Part shown: positions 1-7,760 of the stretch, piece by piece
Layout of the letters: each line of letters opens with the position of its first letter
Position numbering within the stretch: position 1 is the stretch's first letter
The notes under the pieces: model-generated
The model's database searches: none
What the model was told of the DNA's origin: nothing
What the model saw: the letters and a program-made list of their open reading frames with translations, nothing else
Made by a program: the position numbers and the translations under genes
Origin: JBFJWU01 sp041623475 [NCBI: bacterium]
Lineage (GTDB): Bacteria; J088
Assembly: GCA_041623475.1 (NCBI GenBank)
Contig: JBFJWU010000151.1
Span: 1-7,805, forward strand
Length of the DNA stretch: 7,805 bases
Direction: 5' to 3'

Positions 1-1080
1 ACCGATATAGTCGGGATGTTTTTTGACGAGTCCGGCGCGCCTGTCAGTACCACGTTTCCTATATCGAACGCGCCGAACTACCAGAACGGAGTTCAGATTG
101 CCTATGGCGACAGTGGTTCGAACCAGCGATTCCTGGCCGTTTGGACCGATCAAAGAAATAGCGGCTCCGATATCTATGGACAGATCTTGTTTGCCGACGG
201 CACTCCGTCAGGAACGGCGACCGAGTCAAATTTTGTCATCGCGGCTGACGCAGGCAGCAACGGACAGTGGGACCCGGACGTTGCATTTAACCCCGCAACC
301 AACCGTTTTCTTGTGGTATGGAATGACGACCGAAATATAACAACCAGTACCGATATCTACGGTGAATCCATTGGGATGGGAGGTGCCTTACTCTCTGGCA
401 ACCCAGCAATCGGAATGGCTGTTGCGGTTACCAACGGATATCAGGACACACCCAGAATCGACATTGATACGATTGCAGGCCGGGCCCTTGTAACATGGTT
501 GGACGATGCGGACGGAAATTTTCAGGCTGAATGGATCAGCGCACGGCGATTTGACGGCACGCTGTCCCCAACTTCCGCCAGAGCCACAATCGCGGACTCG
601 GACAACGACTACACGGAACACGATCTGGCGTTCGACCTATCATCGCGCACATTCTTCTCGGTGTTTTCTGATGACCGAAACGCCGGTACCAGCCGAGACA
701 TTTATGCCCAGCAGATCAGTTACACAGGGGCCGCAACGGGTGCGCCAACGACTGAAAACATTGAGGTGTCGCGTGCATCCAACTGGCAGGACAACCCGTC
801 GGTAAGTATCGACTCTGTCAACCGGCGAATCGTAGCTGGCTTCAGGGACCAACGTACTGCCACCTATCGTGGCACGGTGCAGCAACTCGGGTCCAACGGC
901 GTGCCCGTCGAAACACCTGTTTGGGACAATTATTCGGTGTTTGTCTCGGCGGACAACGTAGGAACGGTCCGCAGCGCGGCCAACAGCGTATGTGGCGGAT
1001 CAATATTGATGGCGTGGACGGAACCCTTTTCCGGCAGTCACACGCTGTTGACCAAGGTGATCAATGATGATGCGTGCTTT
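1..1080 (+). repeat. Tandem protein repeats of about 59 residues (beta-propeller-like blades)
   Basis: Within the large surface protein, a motif of hydrophobic strand, W or F, then D-x-R (often DDRN or DQRN) and D-I-Y-G/A-Q recurs. The aromatic anchor falls at residues 43, 102, 161, 217, 276 and 334, spacings of 59, 59, 56, 59 and 58. A further partial copy (TDIV) sits at the left window edge. Copies 1, 2 and 4 are closest to consensus; copies 3, 5 and 6 have lost the DIY part. This periodicity fits blades of a sialidase-like or WD-like beta-propeller, with at least six blades visible. The fold is inferred from period and motif only. Confidence 0.65.
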
Positions 1081-2682
1081 CCCGCGTCCATCAGCATCAT
1101 TGATACGTATGGGCCGCCATCGGACCAGGCAGTCACGTTTCCGACTAGCCGGGCCCCGGTTTCATTAAGCGCACCAGTTTCCATTACAAACGCTGGCCGC
1201 ACCCCGTTGAATATTGGCACAATAGCCAGCGCAAACCCGTTGGCGGCACCCTTTTCAATTTCTGCTGACAATTGTTCGAACGCAACGTTAGCACCCTCTG
1301 CGTCGTGCACGTTTGAGCTTCGTTTTGCCGATTCCGTATCCGGGACCTACAGCGACCAGTTTGATGTTCCATCGAACGATCCGGCCAACCCGTCGGTCAC
1401 ATTTACGGTGTCCGGCACTGTGACAGCACCGGTCATTATGGTGACCGATACCGTCGGTGCGGCCGGCGACCAGGCGTTGGACTTCGGGACAATCCCGGCT
1501 GGCGCGCCGGTACAGGGGATCGTCTGGCTGACCAACAATGGCAGCGCCGACCTGGTCCTGACCAATGTGCCCGATGCAAATGCGGTGGCATCCCCGTACA
1601 CGATAATCGGCGAGACATGCGGCAGTTCAACGGTGTCCCCCGGACAATCCTGCAGCGTCACTGTCCGCGCCAACCCGGGAACCGGTGGCGAGGCCACGGA
1701 CAGCTTTGACATCGGTGTCTCGGACCCGGTATTGCCAAACGTGTCAATTTCGACTCGGCTGAATGCCACCTTTGCCCGCATCGTGATCAGCAGCGACCTG
1801 CCCGACAGCCCCGGCGAGGCCCTGCAATTCGGCCAGGTCATCATTGGCCAGGCCGTCACGGCCACGGTGACGATCAGCAACCAGGGCACCGAGCCCCTGC
1901 GGCCCCGCAATGTTGCTTTGCAAGCGGCCAGCGGCCCGTTTTCGACCGCTGCCGACGATTGCAACAATGCGTCGATCCCGGCGGGGGGCCAATGTACGAT
2001 TGCCGTCGTCTTTGCGCCTGGCGATTATGGGACGACGACCGGCACACTGTCATTGACCACAAACGACCTGGAACGTCCTTCGGTCGGGTTGTCCGTATTT
2101 GGCCAGGGTGTCGACGCATCCGGTGGTGTGACTTCCGTTACCGCCAGCAGCAGCAGGCGCCCGGTGCCCATTGCACCAGCCTACGGCGCGTCACTACCCG
2201 GCACATCGGCGGCATTCCGCTGGATCGGCTCTGCACCATTGACCGATGAGACCCTCGTCTACCTGTTGGATCTCTGCACGGACCTGGAACTGACAGATTG
2301 CACCCGATACACGGTTGATCCGGACCAGGCCCAGGCCGCCGGCGCGACCAAGGTCCTTCGCAAGTCTTCGTGGCATCCACTCAACAGCCTGTTGCTGGTC
2401 TTTCCGTTTGGATTCGTCATGATCGGCGGCTTGCGTCGACGGGGGCGGCCGCTGCTGTTGGCCGCCTGCCTGGCCGTTATCCAAATCACCGGCGGCACGG
2501 GCTGCACGTCTGACCTGTTGGATCCCGATCAGTTCCTGCTCAATCTGTTCGAGAACCAGCAGGAAATTGGCTACACCGTCTTTGGCCTGGTTCCTGGGCA
2601 GACATATTTCTGGACCGTCACAGCGGATTACGGCACTGAGCAGGCGGTCAGCGATACGTGGACGTTCTCGATGCAGGAATAG
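1..2682 (+). CDS. Large secreted/surface protein, beta-propeller repeats plus three choice-of-anchor D modules (5' partial)
   Basis: The reading frame is open through the left edge: bases 1-15 encode TDIVG, matching the repeat motif further in (SDIYGQ, TDIYGE). The ATG at 16 is therefore internal and the true start lies outside the window. Numbering from that methionine, 888 residues are visible. Residues 1 to about 355 hold propeller-like repeats. Residues about 356-472, 473-587 and 588-703 are three Ig-like ASH (choice-of-anchor D) modules. Residues about 716-888 form a fibronectin-III-like domain ending in a typical F strand (YFWTVTADYG). That domain is interrupted at about 782-849 by a hydrophobic hairpin described separately. 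Such proteins are normally exported and act at the cell surface or outside it, probably in binding; no catalytic motif is visible. The signal peptide, if any, is off the window. It converges on the cupin gene with a 17 bp gap and no clear terminator. Domain assignments are from pattern recognition; ligand and exact role are unknown. Confidence 0.85.
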   Translation, partial: TDIVGMFFDESGAPVSTTFPISNAPNYQNGVQIAYGDSGSNQRFLAVWTDQRNSGSDIYGQILFADGTPSGTATESNFVIAADAGSNGQWDPDVAFNPATNRFLVVWNDDRNITTSTDIYGESIGMGGALLSGNPAIGMAVAVTNGYQDTPRIDIDTIAGRALVTWLDDADGNFQAEWISARRFDGTLSPTSARATIADSDNDYTEHDLAFDLSSRTFFSVFSDDRNAGTSRDIYAQQISYTGAATGAPTTENIEVSRASNWQDNPSVSIDSVNRRIVAGFRDQRTATYRGTVQQLGSNGVPVETPVWDNYSVFVSADNVGTVRSAANSVCGGSILMAWTEPFSGSHTLLTKVINDDACFPASISIIDTYGPPSDQAVTFPTSRAPVSLSAPVSITNAGRTPLNIGTIASANPLAAPFSISADNCSNATLAPSASCTFELRFADSVSGTYSDQFDVPSNDPANPSVTFTVSGTVTAPVIMVTDTVGAAGDQALDFGTIPAGAPVQGIVWLTNNGSADLVLTNVPDANAVASPYTIIGETCGSSTVSPGQSCSVTVRANPGTGGEATDSFDIGVSDPVLPNVSISTRLNATFARIVISSDLPDSPGEALQFGQVIIGQAVTATVTISNQGTEPLRPRNVALQAASGPFSTAADDCNNASIPAGGQCTIAVVFAPGDYGTTTGTLSLTTNDLERPSVGLSVFGQGVDASGGVTSVTASSSRRPVPIAPAYGASLPGTSAAFRWIGSAPLTDETLVYLLDLCTDLELTDCTRYTVDPDQAQAAGATKVLRKSSWHPLNSLLLVFPFGFVMIGGLRRRGRPLLLAACLAVIQITGGTGCTSDLLDPDQFLLNLFENQQEIGYTVFGLVPGQTYFWTVTADYGTEQAVSDTWTFSMQE
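1081..2118 (+). repeat. Three tandem choice-of-anchor D / ASH-type Ig-like modules
   Basis: Three modules of about 115 residues begin near residues 356, 473 and 588 of the surface protein. Each opens with a beta strand followed by a D-x-x-G/D-x-x-A-L/V-x-F stretch. A strand with T-N-x-G or S-N-Q-G then leads to L-x-P/I/V. Next comes a cysteine pair exactly 11 residues apart (C420/C431, C535/C546, C649/C660), then a strand with P-x-x-x-G, and an S/T-N/S-D-x-x-x-P-x-V closing strand. This is the signature of ASPM-SPD-2-Hydin domains common in bacterial surface proteins. The cysteines probably form one disulfide per module, implying an oxidising extracytoplasmic location. Confidence 0.8.
2359..2562 (+). 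other. Hydrophobic hairpin with Arg cluster and lipobox-like Cys, inserted in a FN3-like domain
   Basis: This segment codes for residues about 782-849 of the surface protein. It has a hydrophobic stretch (about 789-806, containing PFGFVMIGG), a basic turn (R807, R808, R809, R811), a second hydrophobic stretch (about 813-825), then TGGTGC with cysteine 830. A leucine-rich acidic linker follows (DPDQFLLNLFENQQE). On both sides the sequence reads as one fibronectin-III-like domain: strands around 720-775 before it, and GYTVFGL through YFWTVTADYG to DTWTF after it. The first half resembles C-terminal sorting signals (hydrophobic helix plus arginines). The second half resembles a lipoprotein signal peptide, but the residues before C830 (G-T-G) do not make a canonical lipobox. 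It may be a membrane-inserted hairpin; its function is unknown. Confidence 0.6.
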
Positions 2683-3192: not shown

Positions 3193-3669
3193 ATGGCAGG
3201 CAAACGAAAAATAGGGAAACGGTCGCCGGTGACCATCGCTGGCTGGGCACTGGCAGGCATCGCCGGTTTGATTGCCGTTGTCTATGGCTGGCAATATGGC
3301 AACTACTACTTCCAGGCGGTTCACGTCACCAAAAACGCAATGGCACGGATACCGGAGGACATCAGCGACGATCGACTGCACGAGATCACAGTCATGCGGC
3401 TTGATGCCAATCCGTTGCCGTGGACAATCGAGGACCTGGAAATCTTCAACGAGGACGGCAAGGGCCACGCGATGTTTACCTATAACATCTGGATTAACTT
3501 CCTGAACCGAAAATGGATTCAGTTGCCGGTTTCAATGGATGTGTCCCGACTGCTTGGTGGAACCGACCGCAAAGGCGATCGGTATACGCTCCCTGGCGGG
3601 AACAAACGATGGGGCGGATACCGGGGTGACCTGGTCACGTACATCGAGGGCACCAAACGAATGCCCTGA
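3193..3669 (+). CDS. Hypothetical single-pass inner-membrane protein
   Basis: 158 residues from ATG 3193. The N-terminus is strongly basic (MAGKRKIGKR), followed by one hydrophobic segment at about 13-32 and a soluble region of about 125 residues rich in aromatic residues (WTIEDLEIF, YNIWINFLNRKWIQLP, KRWGGY). By the positive-inside rule the N-terminus is cytoplasmic and the C-terminal domain periplasmic; the segment lacks a convincing cleavage site, so it is more likely an anchor. I do not recognise a family. The frame extends to a TTG at 3133, but the basic-plus-hydrophobic start fits ATG 3193. Its Shine-Dalgarno is imperfect: AGGAA ends at 3178, 14 nt upstream, which is long. It is divergent from the cupin gene and converges on cdsA with an 18 bp gap. 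Codon use looks like its neighbours. The coding call is supported by the uninterrupted frame and protein-like composition. Confidence 0.7.
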   Translation: MAGKRKIGKRSPVTIAGWALAGIAGLIAVVYGWQYGNYYFQAVHVTKNAMARIPEDISDDRLHEITVMRLDANPLPWTIEDLEIFNEDGKGHAMFTYNIWINFLNRKWIQLPVSMDVSRLLGGTDRKGDRYTLPGGNKRWGGYRGDLVTYIEGTKRMP

Positions 3670-3687: not shown

Positions 3688-4539
3688 CTACTCGCCGGAC
3701 AGGAACAGATTCAGCGTGATAAATACGTAGTACGCAAAGGGCAGAGTAAACAGGATTGCGTCAATGCGATCCAGGAATCCGCCGTGGCCAGGCAGAATCG
3801 AACCGGAATCCTTGACGTCAGCATCGCGTTTGATCAGGGACTCAACCAGATCCCCGACAAACCCGACCAGGGCAAGCGCAATCCCGAACACGACCAGGGC
3901 CACATCCGAATACGGTACCGGGTGGAACCAGGTTTCCGTTGCCAACTTGATCAGCCAGGCACCCAGGCCTGCCGCCACAACGCCGCCCGCCAGCCCTTCC
4001 CAGGTCTTCTTGGGACTGACCCGGGGCGCAATGGGGTTTTTGCCAAAGCTGCGGCCCGCAAAATAGGCACCGGTGTCTGCCACAAACGTGGTCAACATGG
4101 TAAAGATGACGGCGAAGACACCAATTTTCAGGCTCCCGTCTGGTGAGGCCAGGGTTCGCAGATAGATCCCATGTGTCAGCAACCAGGCAACATACAGGAC
4201 CGCGGTCATGGACACAGCTGTGTTCGTCAGGATCGATCCGCTGGGCGGTGACGTCAACTGGACAACCAACAGCGCCAGGATTCCGGCTGTCAGCATTCCT
4301 GCGGCCAATTCCATACCGAACAGATGCGCCACTGCAAACAAGGCTATCGTGATCCCATAGACGCTTTGCCGATGGGGACGGTACCCCCTGGCCTCCATGA
4401 TTCCAAAAAACTCGTACTGGCAGATTAATGCAACAACCGTCGCATAGCCGGTCCACGACCAGCCACCCAATACCAGTAGCCAGACACTCAACGGTGCCAA
4501 CACCGCAGCAGTCAACAGCCGTGTTACTGTCTCATTCAC
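3688..4539 (-). CDS. cdsA: Phosphatidate cytidylyltransferase (CDP-diglyceride synthase)
   Basis: 283 residues, close to the usual family length. It catalyses CTP + phosphatidate to CDP-diacylglycerol + diphosphate in the inner membrane, the branch point to all bacterial phospholipids. The diagnostic C-terminal signature is intact at residues 237-260: K237-R-D-A-D, K243-D-S-G-S, P250-G-H-G-G, D257-R-I-D260, carrying the metal- and CTP-binding aspartates and lysines. A second family motif, SPKKTWEG, lies upstream. Multiple hydrophobic helices run through the protein from the N-terminus (LAPLSVWLLVLGG). The start is GTG 4539, which overlaps the TGA stop of the upstream gene as GTGA; a GAGGA at 4546-4550 precedes it with 6 nt spacing. 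It is the last gene of the riboflavin-nusB operon and ends facing the membrane-protein gene, with no obvious hairpin terminator between them. Confidence 0.95.
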   Translation of the reverse strand: MNETVTRLLTAAVLAPLSVWLLVLGGWSWTGYATVVALICQYEFFGIMEARGYRPHRQSVYGITIALFAVAHLFGMELAAGMLTAGILALLVVQLTSPPSGSILTNTAVSMTAVLYVAWLLTHGIYLRTLASPDGSLKIGVFAVIFTMLTTFVADTGAYFAGRSFGKNPIAPRVSPKKTWEGLAGGVVAAGLGAWLIKLATETWFHPVPYSDVALVVFGIALALVGFVGDLVESLIKRDADVKDSGSILPGHGGFLDRIDAILFTLPFAYYVFITLNLFLSGE

Positions 4540-5000
4540 CGAAAATCCTCATCCATTGCATCAAACCAGATCCACTTACGAACGCCAGGGATATGCATGC
4601 GAACAGCTGGCAGAAAACGATCACCCCGTGCTGCCCAGGACCCCTTGGGCACCAAAACTGGCTGGGGAGGTAAAACGGCAACCACATCCGGGCCTCCTGG
4701 AAGCCGGTCAGGCAGCGCCTGCAATGCCGTTTCGACCGCACGATCCCAGTCCTGCGGCTCATCACCATATCCAACCAGCAGGAAACCCGCAACAGGCAGC
4801 GAATCCGGCGGAACAAGCATCTGTTCACCCCGTTCACCTGTCCAGAATCCACTGGCAACTGCGTCGCTGATCTGGTCGTGCATCAGGAAATCAAACGTCC
4901 CCAGGTTACCGTCAAGCGGCAGCGTCAAGGGTCCCGCCGGGGCAATGATCCACGGGCGAACATCCTGGATCGCCAGCAAATTGCCAATCTGCACGCCCAT
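4536..5000 (-). CDS. Stand-alone M17 leucine aminopeptidase N-terminal domain-like protein
   Basis: 154 residues. The pattern around residues 30-95 resembles the N-terminal (Macro-like) domain of M17 leucyl aminopeptidases. It has an acidic/glycine start (DGNLG), then FWTGERGEQMLVPP (52-65) corresponding to the family's F-x-G-K-x-G-E-x-L-L-L stretch, then FLLVGYGD (73-80) corresponding to V-L-L-V-G-L-G, and then a helix (WDRAVETALQAL). The large C-terminal metallopeptidase domain is absent: the gene ends about 55 residues later, directly at cdsA. It should therefore have no peptidase activity of that type; a ligand-binding or regulatory role is possible but unproven. Its ATG overlaps the nusB stop as TAATG, and its own stop overlaps cdsA as GTGA. 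Such tight coupling argues that it is a real, maintained gene. Homology is judged by eye and is moderate. Confidence 0.75.
   Translation of the reverse strand: MGVQIGNLLAIQDVRPWIIAPAGPLTLPLDGNLGTFDFLMHDQISDAVASGFWTGERGEQMLVPPDSLPVAGFLLVGYGDEPQDWDRAVETALQALPDRLPGGPDVVAVLPPQPVLVPKGSWAARGDRFLPAVRMHIPGVRKWIWFDAMDEDFR
4546..4550 (-). promoter_or_regulatory. Ribosome binding site GAGGA for cdsA
   Basis: The - strand reads GAGGA, then a 6 nt spacer TTTTCG, then GTG 4539. It lies inside the end of the upstream M17-N-like gene and supports the GTG start and translational coupling. Confidence 0.6.
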
Positions 5001-5407
5001 TATGCGTGCGCCGCCGTGTCCAGCACACCGTTGACAAATCCCGGGGAATCCGCACCACCAAACCGTTTTGCGACTTCAATCCATTCGTTGATAATCACCG
5101 CAACCGGCTCCTGCTGTTGCTTGAGCTCGGTGACTCCCAGGCGCAGGATATTCCGGTCCTCGGCGGCCATTCGGGACAATTTCCAGTTGCTGCTCAAAGA
5201 TTCAATTGCCGCATCAATGTCACTGCGCCCAGCCAGGAACGCATCAACCAGCCCGATTGCGGCCGCCCGGACATCTTCGCCGGGCACCGGCTCTGTCCGG
5301 GCCAGGAATTCGCGGACCATCGCGATATCCCAGTCATTGCGGGCATCCAGCATGAACAGCGATTGAAAGGCAAACTCGCGTGCACGGCGCCGCTGTCTGG
5401 GTTTCAC
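5000..5407 (-). CDS. nusB: Transcription antitermination factor NusB
   Basis: 135 residues, typical NusB length. NusB binds the boxA RNA of rRNA leaders with NusE (S10) and lets RNA polymerase read through rRNA operons. Diagnostic parts are the basic N-terminus with RRRAREFAFQSLF, the central D-R-N-I-L-R-L-G-V-T-E-L, and the C-terminal INEWIEVAKRFG followed by FVNGVLD. The start is GTG 5407 (first residues MKPRQRRR), the family's usual beginning; I see no good Shine-Dalgarno in the 22 nt after ribH, so translation may depend on coupling with ribH. Placement directly after ribH is a widely conserved arrangement in bacteria. Its stop TAA overlaps the next ATG (TAATG). Confidence 0.95.
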   Translation of the reverse strand: MKPRQRRRAREFAFQSLFMLDARNDWDIAMVREFLARTEPVPGEDVRAAAIGLVDAFLAGRSDIDAAIESLSSNWKLSRMAAEDRNILRLGVTELKQQQEPVAVIINEWIEVAKRFGGADSPGFVNGVLDTAAHA

Positions 5408-5429
5408 AGGAATGCCATTTGATCAGGGA

Positions 5430-5900
5430 TCAGACTGAGTCCAGGGTTGCCAGGCATTCCAGCAGCGCCGCGGCCGCTTCGTGCCCCTTATTGTCGGCAC
5501 CGGACCCGGACCGGTCCCGCGCCTGTTGGTCCGAGTCACAGGTCAGGACACCCAGGGTAATCGGGCGATCCAGGGCCAGGCTGGCGTTCATGCAACCATC
5601 GGTGACAGAGCGGCAGACATAGTCGAAATGCGGCGTGCCGCCCCGGATTACCGCGCCCAACGCGACAACGCCGTCAACGCCGCCACTGCGCAGCAGCCTG
5701 GCGGCAACAACTGGAATTTCAATGGCACCGGCGACCCGGCAAACCCGAATGTCACCGGACGACACACCGGATTCCTGCAGCAATGCGACCGCACCTTCCA
5801 GCAATGGCTCTGTAATGTGGGGATTGAACCGGGCAACAACAATCCCGATCCGGCGGCCGCGGCCATCCAACTGCGGTGCCTGGCCCGGAGTATTACTCAC
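5430..5900 (-). CDS. ribH: 6,7-dimethyl-8-ribityllumazine synthase
   Basis: 156 residues, usual length. It condenses 5-amino-6-ribitylamino-uracil with 3,4-dihydroxy-2-butanone 4-phosphate to give 6,7-dimethyl-8-ribityllumazine, the penultimate step of riboflavin synthesis. Family motifs in order: IVVARFN (20-26), VAGAIEIP (56-63), ALGAVIRGGTPHFDYV (80-95) with the catalytic-position histidine H91, and PITLGVLTCDSDQQA (113-127) followed by NKGHEAA. It probably assembles into pentamers or a 60-mer capsid like its relatives. The start is GTG 5900, overlapping the ribBA stop as GTGA, with GGAGGG at 5907-5912 giving a 6 nt spacing. An extended, flexible-looking N-terminus of about 15 residues precedes the first strand. 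Confidence 0.96.
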   Translation of the reverse strand: MSNTPGQAPQLDGRGRRIGIVVARFNPHITEPLLEGAVALLQESGVSSGDIRVCRVAGAIEIPVVAARLLRSGGVDGVVALGAVIRGGTPHFDYVCRSVTDGCMNASLALDRPITLGVLTCDSDQQARDRSGSGADNKGHEAAAALLECLATLDSV

Positions 5901-7117
5901 GAGGAGCCCTCCAGGACATCATCAAGCAAATGGCCCATCCGTTCCTTTTTGGTCTGCATATAACCGGCGTTTTCTGAATTTGCCGGCACCTGGATCGGCA
6001 CGCGTTCAACCATTTCCAGGCCAAATCCGTCCAGTCCGACGATCTTCTTGGGATTGTTGGTCATCAGGCGGAATTTGCCAACCCCAAGGTCCTTCAGGAT
6101 CTGCGCGCCAAACCCATAGGTTCGCAAGTCAGGTGGAAAACCGATCTTCTGGTTTGCTTCAACCGTATCGAATCCCTGGTCCTGCAGCGCATAGGCGCGA
6201 ATCTTGTTCAACAAACCAATCCCGCGTCCTTCCTGGCGCAAATAGACCAGGACACCCGCCCCTTCCTGGACAATCATCTGCAATGCCATTTCCAACTGCG
6301 ATCCGCAATCGCAGCGTAAGCTGCCGAAAACATCGCCCGTCAGGCACTCACTATGCATCCGGATCAGGGTCGGAGTATCGGGCGTCGGATCGCCCAGAAC
6401 GATTGCCACGTGCTCGCTGCCGTCAATTACATTACGATAGCCGTGCAACGTAAAGTCAGTGCCAAAGCGCGTCGGCAGTTTCGCTGACGAAATACGCTTG
6501 ACCAGTGTTTCCCGCTCCAGCCGGTAGCGAATCATGTCGGCGATACTGGCGACAACCAGCCCGTGCTCGCTGGCAAACGCTTCCAGTTCCGGGACGCGCG
6601 CCATCGTCCCGTCATCATTCATGATTTCGCAGATTACGGCGGCTGACGTCCGACCGGCCATCCGGCACAGGTCAACACTGGCTTCCGTATGCCCGGCGCG
6701 GATCAGGACGCCACCCTGCCGAGCTTCCAGCGGAAAAACGTGCCCCGGGCTGACCAGGTCGCTGGGACGGGAATCAGGCGAAACGGCAACCCGGATCGTG
6801 TGCGCGCGATCATGGGCACTGATGCCGGTTGTTACCCCTTCGCTTGCTTCAATACTGACGGTGAACGCTGTTCCGTGTGAATCATCGTTTTCGGGAACCA
6901 TTGGCGGCAATTTCAATCGGTCGACAATTGTGTGGTCAAGGGACAGGCAAATCAAACCACGGCCGTGCTTGGCCATGAAGTTCACGGCCTCCGGTGTCAC
7001 GGCATCTGCCGCCAGGATCAGGTCGCCTTCGTTTTCCCGGTCTTCGTCATCGACCAGAATGACAATCTCGCCGCGGCGAATCGCATCGATCGCCTCATCA
7101 ACGGTCGCCAGGCTCAC
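5897..7117 (-). CDS. ribBA: Bifunctional 3,4-dihydroxy-2-butanone-4-phosphate synthase / GTP cyclohydrolase II
   Basis: 406 residues, the normal size of the two-domain enzyme. The N-terminal RibB domain (about 1-200) makes DHBP from ribulose 5-phosphate. It carries the acidic loop DDEDRENEGD (23-32), ISAHDRAHTI, SPGHVFPL, GHTEASVDL with H143, and CEIMNDDGTMAR with E164. The C-terminal RibA domain (about 205-400) opens GTP to the diaminopyrimidine that starts riboflavin synthesis. Its zinc ligands C258, C269 and C271 are present in SECLTGDVFGSLRCDCG, followed by LRQEGRGIGL, the D330-L-R332 motif with Y334, and LMTNNPKK. Both active sites look complete, unlike some RibBA proteins with a degenerate cyclohydrolase half. 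The start is GTG 7117, overlapping the ribE stop as GTGA, with AGGA at 7124-7127 6 nt upstream. Confidence 0.97.
   Translation of the reverse strand: MSLATVDEAIDAIRRGEIVILVDDEDRENEGDLILAADAVTPEAVNFMAKHGRGLICLSLDHTIVDRLKLPPMVPENDDSHGTAFTVSIEASEGVTTGISAHDRAHTIRVAVSPDSRPSDLVSPGHVFPLEARQGGVLIRAGHTEASVDLCRMAGRTSAAVICEIMNDDGTMARVPELEAFASEHGLVVASIADMIRYRLERETLVKRISSAKLPTRFGTDFTLHGYRNVIDGSEHVAIVLGDPTPDTPTLIRMHSECLTGDVFGSLRCDCGSQLEMALQMIVQEGAGVLVYLRQEGRGIGLLNKIRAYALQDQGFDTVEANQKIGFPPDLRTYGFGAQILKDLGVGKFRLMTNNPKKIVGLDGFGLEMVERVPIQVPANSENAGYMQTKKERMGHLLDDVLEGSS
5907..5912 (-). promoter_or_regulatory. Strong ribosome binding site GGAGGG for ribH
   Basis: The - strand reads GGAGGG 6 nt before GTG 5900, within the last codons of ribBA. 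This is the strongest Shine-Dalgarno seen in the operon, consistent with high lumazine synthase output from an overlapping start. Confidence 0.65.
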
Positions 7118-7728
7118 AAAGCGTCCTGACGCTGGGCCAGCTGTCTTGCCAGAATTTCGGCAACTTGTTTTGCCACCGGATCCGCCTCCATATTGGCCTT
7201 GTCCCCCACGTTCAGTTCGCCCAGATGGGTTTCCTGCTGCGTGTGCGGGATGATGTTAACCGTGATCCCTGCATCGGTCCGGCGATTGATTGTCAAGCTG
7301 ACACCGTCGATCGCAACCGATCCCTTGACCGACAACGCAGCATCCAGAAATCCGGGCCGCGAAAATTCCAGGATTACGTCATCACCACTGGGTGTTCTGG
7401 ACATCAATTCACAACAACCATCAACGTGCCCCTGAACAATGTGTCCGCCCAATGGATCACCAGCGCGAATCGCCGGCTCCAGATGGACCCGGCGCCCATT
7501 CGCCCAGCTACCGGCCGTCGTTCGTTCGAGCGTCTCACCGCTCAGGTAGAACGTTCCGCTGTCCTTGCCAAGCGTTTCGACCGTCAGGCAGACACCGTCA
7601 ACGGCGACGCTGGCCCCTGGCTCCAGGTCCCAGTCGGGGCGAAGTCCAACGATGTCGATCTGCAGGCCCTCGCCGCGCTGCTGGACATTCGCCAACACGC
7701 CCTGGGCACGAATGATACCGGTAAACAA
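7114..7728 (-). CDS. ribE: Riboflavin synthase, alpha subunit type
   Basis: It performs the last step of riboflavin synthesis, dismutation of two 6,7-dimethyl-8-ribityllumazine molecules, usually as a trimer. Two tandem lumazine-binding barrels are visible. Barrel 1 (about 1-90) has MFTGII, VAVDGVCLTV (41-50) and SGETLERTT. Barrel 2 (about 95-190) begins at GGHIVQGHVDG (94-104), then VAIDGVSLTI (138-147), IIPHT (159-163) and NMEAD (179-183). Start choice: the frame extends to an ATG at 7758, which adds ten residues and has no Shine-Dalgarno. The family almost always begins MFTGII. Here the codon before F is TTG 7728, preceded at 5 nt by AGAGGA. I therefore call a TTG start and 204 residues; 7758 remains an alternative. 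It is the first gene of the operon and overlaps ribBA by GTGA. The symbol ribE is also written ribC in some organisms. Confidence 0.95.
   Translation of the reverse strand: MFTGIIRAQGVLANVQQRGEGLQIDIVGLRPDWDLEPGASVAVDGVCLTVETLGKDSGTFYLSGETLERTTAGSWANGRRVHLEPAIRAGDPLGGHIVQGHVDGCCELMSRTPSGDDVILEFSRPGFLDAALSVKGSVAIDGVSLTINRRTDAGITVNIIPHTQQETHLGELNVGDKANMEADPVAKQVAEILARQLAQRQDAL
7124..7127 (-). promoter_or_regulatory. Ribosome binding site AGGA for ribBA
   Basis: The - strand reads CAGGAC with AGGA 6 nt before GTG 7117, inside the 3' end of ribE. It supports the GTG start that forms the GTGA overlap. Confidence 0.5.
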
Positions 7729-7733
7729 GGCTT

Positions 7734-7739
7734 TCCTCT
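7734..7739 (-). promoter_or_regulatory. Ribosome binding site AGAGGA for ribE
   Basis: The - strand reads AAGAGGAAAGCC then TTG 7728, a spacing of 5 nt from AGAGGA. It lies inside what would be coding sequence if ATG 7758 were used, and so decides for the TTG start. Confidence 0.6.
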
Positions 7740-7760
7740 TGGTGTCATTGTAACCCATCG

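Follow-up and report, generated by a model that had tools for sequence, protein, structure and literature searches.

How does a membrane hairpin with a lipoprotein-like cysteine at its end come to lie inside a folded extracellular domain, and what might it do there? The question is raised by a 7,805-nucleotide stretch of contig JBFJWU010000151.1 (assembly GCA_041623475.1, J088 lineage), referred to here as the window, which begins with a surface-protein gene (positions 1–2682, forward strand; 893 codons plus stop) that is open at its 5′ end, its N terminus and any signal peptide lying outside the window. At the end of this protein, downstream of three choice-of-anchor D (NF012200) or HYDIN-type stretches, is a fibronectin type III (FN3) domain with a hairpin inserted into one of its loops. 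Comparison with related sequences indicates that this tail is a real, conserved FN3-hosted hairpin arrangement. The explanation that we favour overall, giving it slightly better than an even chance, is a C-terminal anchoring device in which an internal lipoprotein signal is carried within the FN3 domain.

The C-terminal domain (positions 2161–2679, forward strand, as are all features of the tail; 173 aa) is the final one before the stop codon, and was delimited by the match of a model that leaves the window out and by the predicted fold. It consists of an N-terminal part with strands A, B, C and C′ (2161–2328) and a C-terminal part with strands E, F and G, including a conserved Trp and Phe and extending up to the C terminus (2557–2679); the strands are those predicted by AF2, and their letters were assigned by us. 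Inserted into the C′–E loop is a module of about 76 aa (~2329–2556), comprising a first hydrophobic helix (PLNSLLLVFPFGFVMIGGL; 2377–2433; predicted to run from outside to inside), a basic loop RRRGR (2434–2448; predicted to be cytoplasmic), a second hydrophobic helix of 18 aa resembling a lipoprotein signal (PLLLAACLAVIQITGGTG; 2449–2502), a lipobox-type cysteine that is a candidate lipidation site (2503–2505), and a linker (2506–2556) unlike the usual Gly/Ser-rich type. Residue numbers refer to P0001, the 893-aa frame that starts at base 1; subtracting 5 gives the numbering of the initial annotation of this DNA, which is retained for the arginines of the basic loop (R807–R809 and R811) and for the cysteine, C830, which is residue 835 of P0001. 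From C830 to the stop are 59 aa, the cysteine counted. Rechecked coordinates bear out the initial description of the insert as a hydrophobic helix with arginines joined to a lipoprotein-like segment, and its presence stands; its size, put at 68 residues, proved larger by comparison with uninterrupted FN3 domains.

A rule describing this architecture (helix, at least three K/R, helix, small residue plus Cys) was matched by none of 100,000 shuffles of the window tail and by one of 3,782 open reading frames (ORFs) of at least 100 aa in the window and 80 other loci, the sole match being the window tail itself; as the rule catches only 33 of the 94 related tails described below, it gauges rarity and not sensitivity. 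Flanking the hairpin is also a 12-nt exact in-frame direct repeat, ACCTGTTGGATC, with one copy in strand C (2261–2272) and the other, 252 nt away, just past the cysteine (2513–2524); it is possibly the trace of an insertion or duplication, or else due to chance.

The strands on the two sides of the insert are predicted to close into one FN3 domain around it. Once its hairpin columns are deleted, the family model is reduced to 91 positions, and almost its whole length aligns with plain FN3 domains; viral contigs supply 31 distinct examples (best score 64.8 bits), and the full set of loci examined supplies 64. The inserted module is missing from these plain relatives and conserved in the 94 tails. 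The distance between the Trp residues on either side of the insert is 130 in the window; the medians are 120 for the tails (measurable in 85 of 94) and 45 for the plain FN3 domains (measurable in 30 of 31). Supplied with an alignment of the window tail and the 31 plain FN3 rows chosen by the flank-only model, AF2 placed strands at tail residues 2–5, 10–12, 16–24, 33–39 and 47–52 before the insert (block predicted local distance difference test scores (pLDDT) of 81–97 over residues 1–50) and at 133–141, 148–156, 161–163 and 167–171 after it. The best matches of this model in Foldseek are FN3 domains (best E value of 2.8e-3, none at E ≤ 0.001), and VIA-align superposes it with the FN3 domain of NCAM (2e3v_C; Z of 11.1, 2.4 Å over 93 residues). 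Run on the window tail as a single sequence, AF2 produced no usable fold (mean pLDDT of 39.9), and a Pfam scan of the same tail yielded no family at E ≤ 0.1, fn3 (PF00041) included; that family matches 82 of the 94 tails, the window not among them. The initial annotation had one Ig-like domain reading across the insert, and the flank-only model, the AF2 prediction and the structure comparison agree, identifying it as FN3, with flanking strands that pair into a single domain in the predicted fold and in the plain FN3 matches. Homologs with unpaired flanking strands, which the initial annotation had named as a refutation, were accordingly not encountered.

Tails of this kind recur well beyond the window. 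Three matches to the NCBIfam model NF058595, discussed below, carry a hairpin inside a window-like FN3 domain: L082 and L093 from a Desulfuromusa-type genome, and L086 from a genome of Candidatus Troglogloeales, a group that we take to belong to the Nitrospirota. Profiles A1, A2 and A3 were built from these three and the window, and A1 and A2, which thus include the window, were used to gather all the other tails. Selection was by model coverage, not by the cysteine; identical tails were removed, and 187 partial matches, many of them pieces of plain FN3 domains, were set aside before counting. What results is a set of 94 distinct full-length tails, that of the window among them, at 89 loci, mostly in Nitrospirota-type genomes; all 94 terminate 0–10 residues past the FN3 domain. 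Matches at E ≤ 1e-8 are present in 46 of the 395 genomes of the Nitrospirota-type sample (phylum of G033), 43 of which have a near-full-length match, with a maximum of seven full-length copies per genome (G610) and some copies in tandem arrays. Full-length tails were also found in three genomes of each of two overlapping samples of the Desulfuromusa-type phylum (148 and 198 genomes), in 1 of 149 Acidobacteria-type genomes and in 2 of 193 Anaeromyxobacter-type genomes. With profile A2, none was detected in 9 genomes from the phylum of G037 or in 64 further genomes; the hairpin model covers no hairpin at any of the 53 loci on viral contigs (13 + 33 + 7); and when genome contigs were searched by pattern for sequences closely related to the last 193 aa, there were 267 matches, none of them confirmed.

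A model made from the other 93 tails matches the whole window protein with 68.5 bits (residues 721–891, model positions 1–160 of 161) and the window tail alone with 74.3 bits; in 200 trials in which only the hairpin was shuffled, the latter score fell to 49 on average and never exceeded 65. Because the gathering profiles A1 and A2 contained the window, a model of three sequences, L082, L086 and L093, which had been found without it, was tested separately; it gives the window only 5.4 bits, yet places it above all 500 shuffles. On four contigs there are two to four hairpin-tailed surface proteins each, some of them directly adjacent: G608:C52 (67563–77103; L230, L245), G711:C19 (669–7066; L235), G559:C109 (L212, L213, L228) and G539:C24 (L206).

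Could the tail be an artefact, that is, a fusion, frameshift or misassembly joining a C-terminal anchor to a lipoprotein? A few relatives are indeed broken: the reading frame of the hairpin genes on G395:C214 (L153, L161) and G558:C5 (L265) shifts within the hairpin or shortly upstream of it, and on the chimera-like G407:C158 an acyl-CoA-ligase-like frame continues into the final third of such a tail (L267:237-1211:-), possibly through misassembly. This explanation is nevertheless exceedingly improbable, and already contradicted by the relatives, with 94 in-frame tails at 89 loci in two phylum-level samples and the window, and three further tails in two other samples; in the window, the ORF is unbroken and base composition runs smoothly across the insert. 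Among the incomplete tails, L264 (G380), L262 and L263 (both G670) adjoin contig ends, and no natural split gene with a free-standing second half was established among those inspected.

Within the module, the letters of the helices drift among the 94 tails while the cysteine is as conserved as the core Trp residues of the FN3 domain (information content of 6.27 bits, compared with 6.07 and 6.27). A cysteine follows the second helix in all 94 tails, as determined by a script whose choice was wrong for L250, a tail that nevertheless has a good lipobox, and the cysteine aligns in 93 of the 94 rows, the exception being the window, where MAFFT placed it six columns rightward. By a scripted rule, the basic loop contains at least two K/R in every tail and no D/E in 85; Trp 151 and Phe 169 are present in all rows. 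Around the cysteines picked by the script, position −1 is S, A or G in 93 of 94 tails, position +2 is Gly in 79 and position −3 is Leu in 60. A permissive lipobox pattern of the PROSITE type fits 90 of the 94 tails, and the strict pattern [LVI][ASTVI][GAS]C fits 62.

The anchoring device that we favour would operate as follows. The surface protein would be exported via Sec; among the 52 relatives with a complete 5′ end, 43 have a signal-peptide-like N terminus by a crude rule, 41 of these being of type I. The hairpin in the C′–E loop would then dip into the inner membrane. Owing to the location of the protein body outside and to the positive-inside rule, the first helix would run from outside to inside, the arginines would stay inside and the second helix would return from inside to outside, a topology that we consider very probable. 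This would give the second helix the orientation of an N-terminal lipoprotein signal, so that the cysteine would be presented to Lgt and LspA in the customary way. Together with the cysteine, this helix would thus act as an internal lipoprotein signal, and modification of C830 by Lgt is fairly likely. LspA would subsequently cut just before C830, a step with somewhat less than an even chance, converting the FN3 domain into two chains joined by its β-sheets: a large cargo chain (strands A–C′) and a 59-residue lipidated chain (strands E–G). That the two would remain together after cleavage is more tentative still.

The initial annotation held that the arrangement must force either an unusual topology or a splitting of the protein. 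Since both ends of a two-helix hairpin emerge on one side of the membrane, the flanking strands can all lie outside and the domain can close around the insert, and no unusual topology is forced; splitting survives as a possibility if LspA acts at the cysteine, although nothing compels it. One hairpin-tailed protein (L189:620-2608:-) also starts with an N-terminal lipobox-like FTACGGGGG, and there may be two lipoprotein signals per chain in this case.

Several observations weigh against the proposed anchoring device. The lipobox of the window (GTG-C) is weak, with G at −3 and T at +2, most tails having stronger ones; it fits the permissive pattern but not the strict one, and the sole strict match possible in the window is LAAC, within the second helix and away from C830. 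Because GTG-C-T fails the strict pattern, the window protein itself might escape lipidation. A Glu directly precedes the cysteine in L322, an Acidobacteria-type full tail outside the 94, and a 77-aa ORF in mid-contig (L268:2108-2338:+, G721:C37) comprises the second helix and the final strands of FN3 but lacks the lipobox cysteine, which may represent a decayed copy or a different use. AF2 leaves the hairpin without a reliable model (block pLDDT of 36–45 over tail residues 61–120), and the N terminus of the window protein is outside the record. The main gap is in the mechanism: following the cut by LspA, the large chain keeps both helices unless the first is also cut, and lipidation would therefore not free this chain for the outer membrane.

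The weak lipobox of the window and the Glu of L322 would sit more comfortably with a plain double-spanning inner-membrane anchor in the FN3 loop, its cysteine either unlipidated or lipidated and left uncut, and the protein a single chain; the hairpin alone would suffice to anchor the protein and let the FN3 domain close. Such an anchor has no need, however, of a cysteine conserved to the level of the FN3 core, or of S/A/G before it and mostly G after it, and we regard this explanation as unlikely, if far from negligible.

Among published systems that we met, the closest logic is that of myxosortase and MYXO-CTERM. The sections of PMC11980579 consulted present a conserved cysteine, a helix and arginines, propose lipidation of the cysteine followed by intramembrane cleavage, and mention an internal copy and an inverted topology; in the window, by contrast, the cysteine comes after the second helix and is itself followed by folded strands. 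The GlyGly-CTERM tails of rhombosortase (PMC3237569 and PMC6219818, each consulted in part) resemble the window in having a hydrophobic region and positive charges near the C terminus, but are tripartite, with a Gly/Ser-rich motif first and the charged residues last. In the window, 77 residues follow RRRGR, and the extreme C-terminal basic residues of MYXO-CTERM, GlyGly-CTERM and PEP-CTERM type tails are lacking. An ordinary SPase II lipoprotein signal also has basic residues, a hydrophobic stretch, a small residue and a cysteine, often with a Gly-rich linker; the window copy differs in lying near the C terminus, within a folded domain and after a first helix. Among Creative Commons-licensed papers in PubMed Central, our searches turned up none that deals with lipo-invert or with a domain split by an internal lipobox.

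Could the first half of the module instead be a tripartite sorting signal (motif, helix and arginines) cut by an intramembrane sortase, the remainder being discarded or having a separate role? Preceding the first helix in most aligned tails is a Y/F-A-G motif (first position Y or F in 69 of 91 rows, second A in 77 of 91, third G in 64 of 89), weak matches were obtained to the models MYXO-CTERM (1 of 94 tails) and midcut_by_XrtH (2 of 94), and rhomboid-like proteins that do not reach the cut-off for rhombosortase are widespread among these genomes and occur in 14 of 14 controls. Conversely, the motif is not in the window, there is no clear YAG in the Desulfuromusa- and Myxococcota-type tails read, and the conserved strands E–G and cysteine would be pointless in a discarded remainder. 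Of 40 carrier genomes, 15 gave no exosortase match and 39 no rhombosortase match over the cut-off. Comparison of 40 of the 46 carriers with 40 non-carriers, using the exosortase and rhombosortase profiles only and with kinship not controlled, gave exosortase matches in 25 and 17 genomes, respectively, and rhombosortase over the cut-off in one of each; the two profiles fail to mark carriers, and lend no support to either sortase. A cut by an intramembrane sortase is rather improbable. The matches to midcut_by_XrtH (NF033207; at E ≤ 0.1, best 2.4e-4), together with a weak one in an Anaeromyxobacter-type sample (L323:1498-1977:-), hint at another internal sorting signal.

The initial annotation did not name the arrangement; as a kind, it already has a name in NCBIfam, where NF058595 is a ‘lipo-invert putative C-terminal anchoring domain’ (invert_tail). 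This model aligns to residues 62–116 of the window tail, over the insert, and scores 14.4 bits with C-terminal fragments of the window protein (E values of 0.035–0.037), below its curated cut-off of 37; it was absent from the results for the full-length protein. It matches 91 of the 94 tails at E ≤ 0.1, and at most four of the 94 reach the cut-off, for which an E value stood in that is slightly loose (L133 scores 36.6 bits). The window tail is an FN3-hosted variant of the NF058595 kind, not a formal member. The impression that similar segments occur at the C termini of other surface proteins is thereby confirmed, by the 94 tails and by NF058595.

NF058595 exceeds its cut-off in 16 of 149 Acidobacteriota-type genomes (phylum of G027), where a single genome has as many as 18 matches at E ≤ 0.001, and 5 of the 14 control genomes match it below the cut-off. 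Of 19 places that score below the cut-off in other genomes, at least 7 are ordinary N-terminal lipoprotein signals; since the model also matches these, the second half of the module resembles a genuine lipoprotein signal. The Acidobacteriota-type tails that were read consist of Ig strands, a helix, R/K residues, a second helix, a lipobox cysteine, an often Gly/Ser-rich linker and the last two strands, followed by the stop. In a set of 14 Ig-type tails, which omits one (L113) missed by the gathering script, the permissive lipobox fits 12 and the strict one 7. Deleting the hairpin from these tails recovers a plain repeat: the resulting model is matched over 80% or more of its length by 24 distinct plain sequences.

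The layout common to both groups is a helix, a basic loop, a second helix and a cysteine near the C terminus, followed by the last strands of a β-sandwich. The hosts differ, the Acidobacteriota-type one being a different Ig-like repeat and that of the window FN3, as does the insertion site, which precedes the final two strands in the Ig-like repeat (by eye) and the final three in FN3. When whole-tail profiles are compared, only the membrane module and linker join (96% probability; FN3 columns 52–129 and Ig columns 79–157); the hairpin alone gives 54% over 35 columns, and the flanks alone 0.7% with no match. Shared descent of the membrane module in the FN3 and Ig hosts is plausible from these profiles but not proved, because hydrophobic composition may raise such probabilities. 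In its widest form, our proposal would have a folded Ig-like domain cut in two to serve as an anchor, with its signal lipidated and cleaved, its cargo held by β-sheet complementation, and one module having entered two hosts at two different loops; as a whole, this is possible but doubtful.

The mechanism is plausible and open to test, although we infer lipidation and cleavage from sequence. If true, it would constitute a way of anchoring distinct from the sorting systems discussed above, and one on which proteins with ordinary signal peptides rely in several phylum-level samples. A bare database domain name would become a direct question, namely whether SPase II cuts inside an Ig-like domain whose two pieces are then held together. 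Annotation would change too, because what topology software would take for an anchor lies within a continuing domain.

Elsewhere in the window, consecutive genes on the minus strand (3691–7758) encode CdsA, the product of an ORF at 4539–5000, NusB, RibH, RibBA and RibE. This ORF and another on the plus strand (3193–3666) have no Pfam match at E ≤ 0.01. For RibBA, the best identity among the matches listed is 64%, and these are from mixed lineages.
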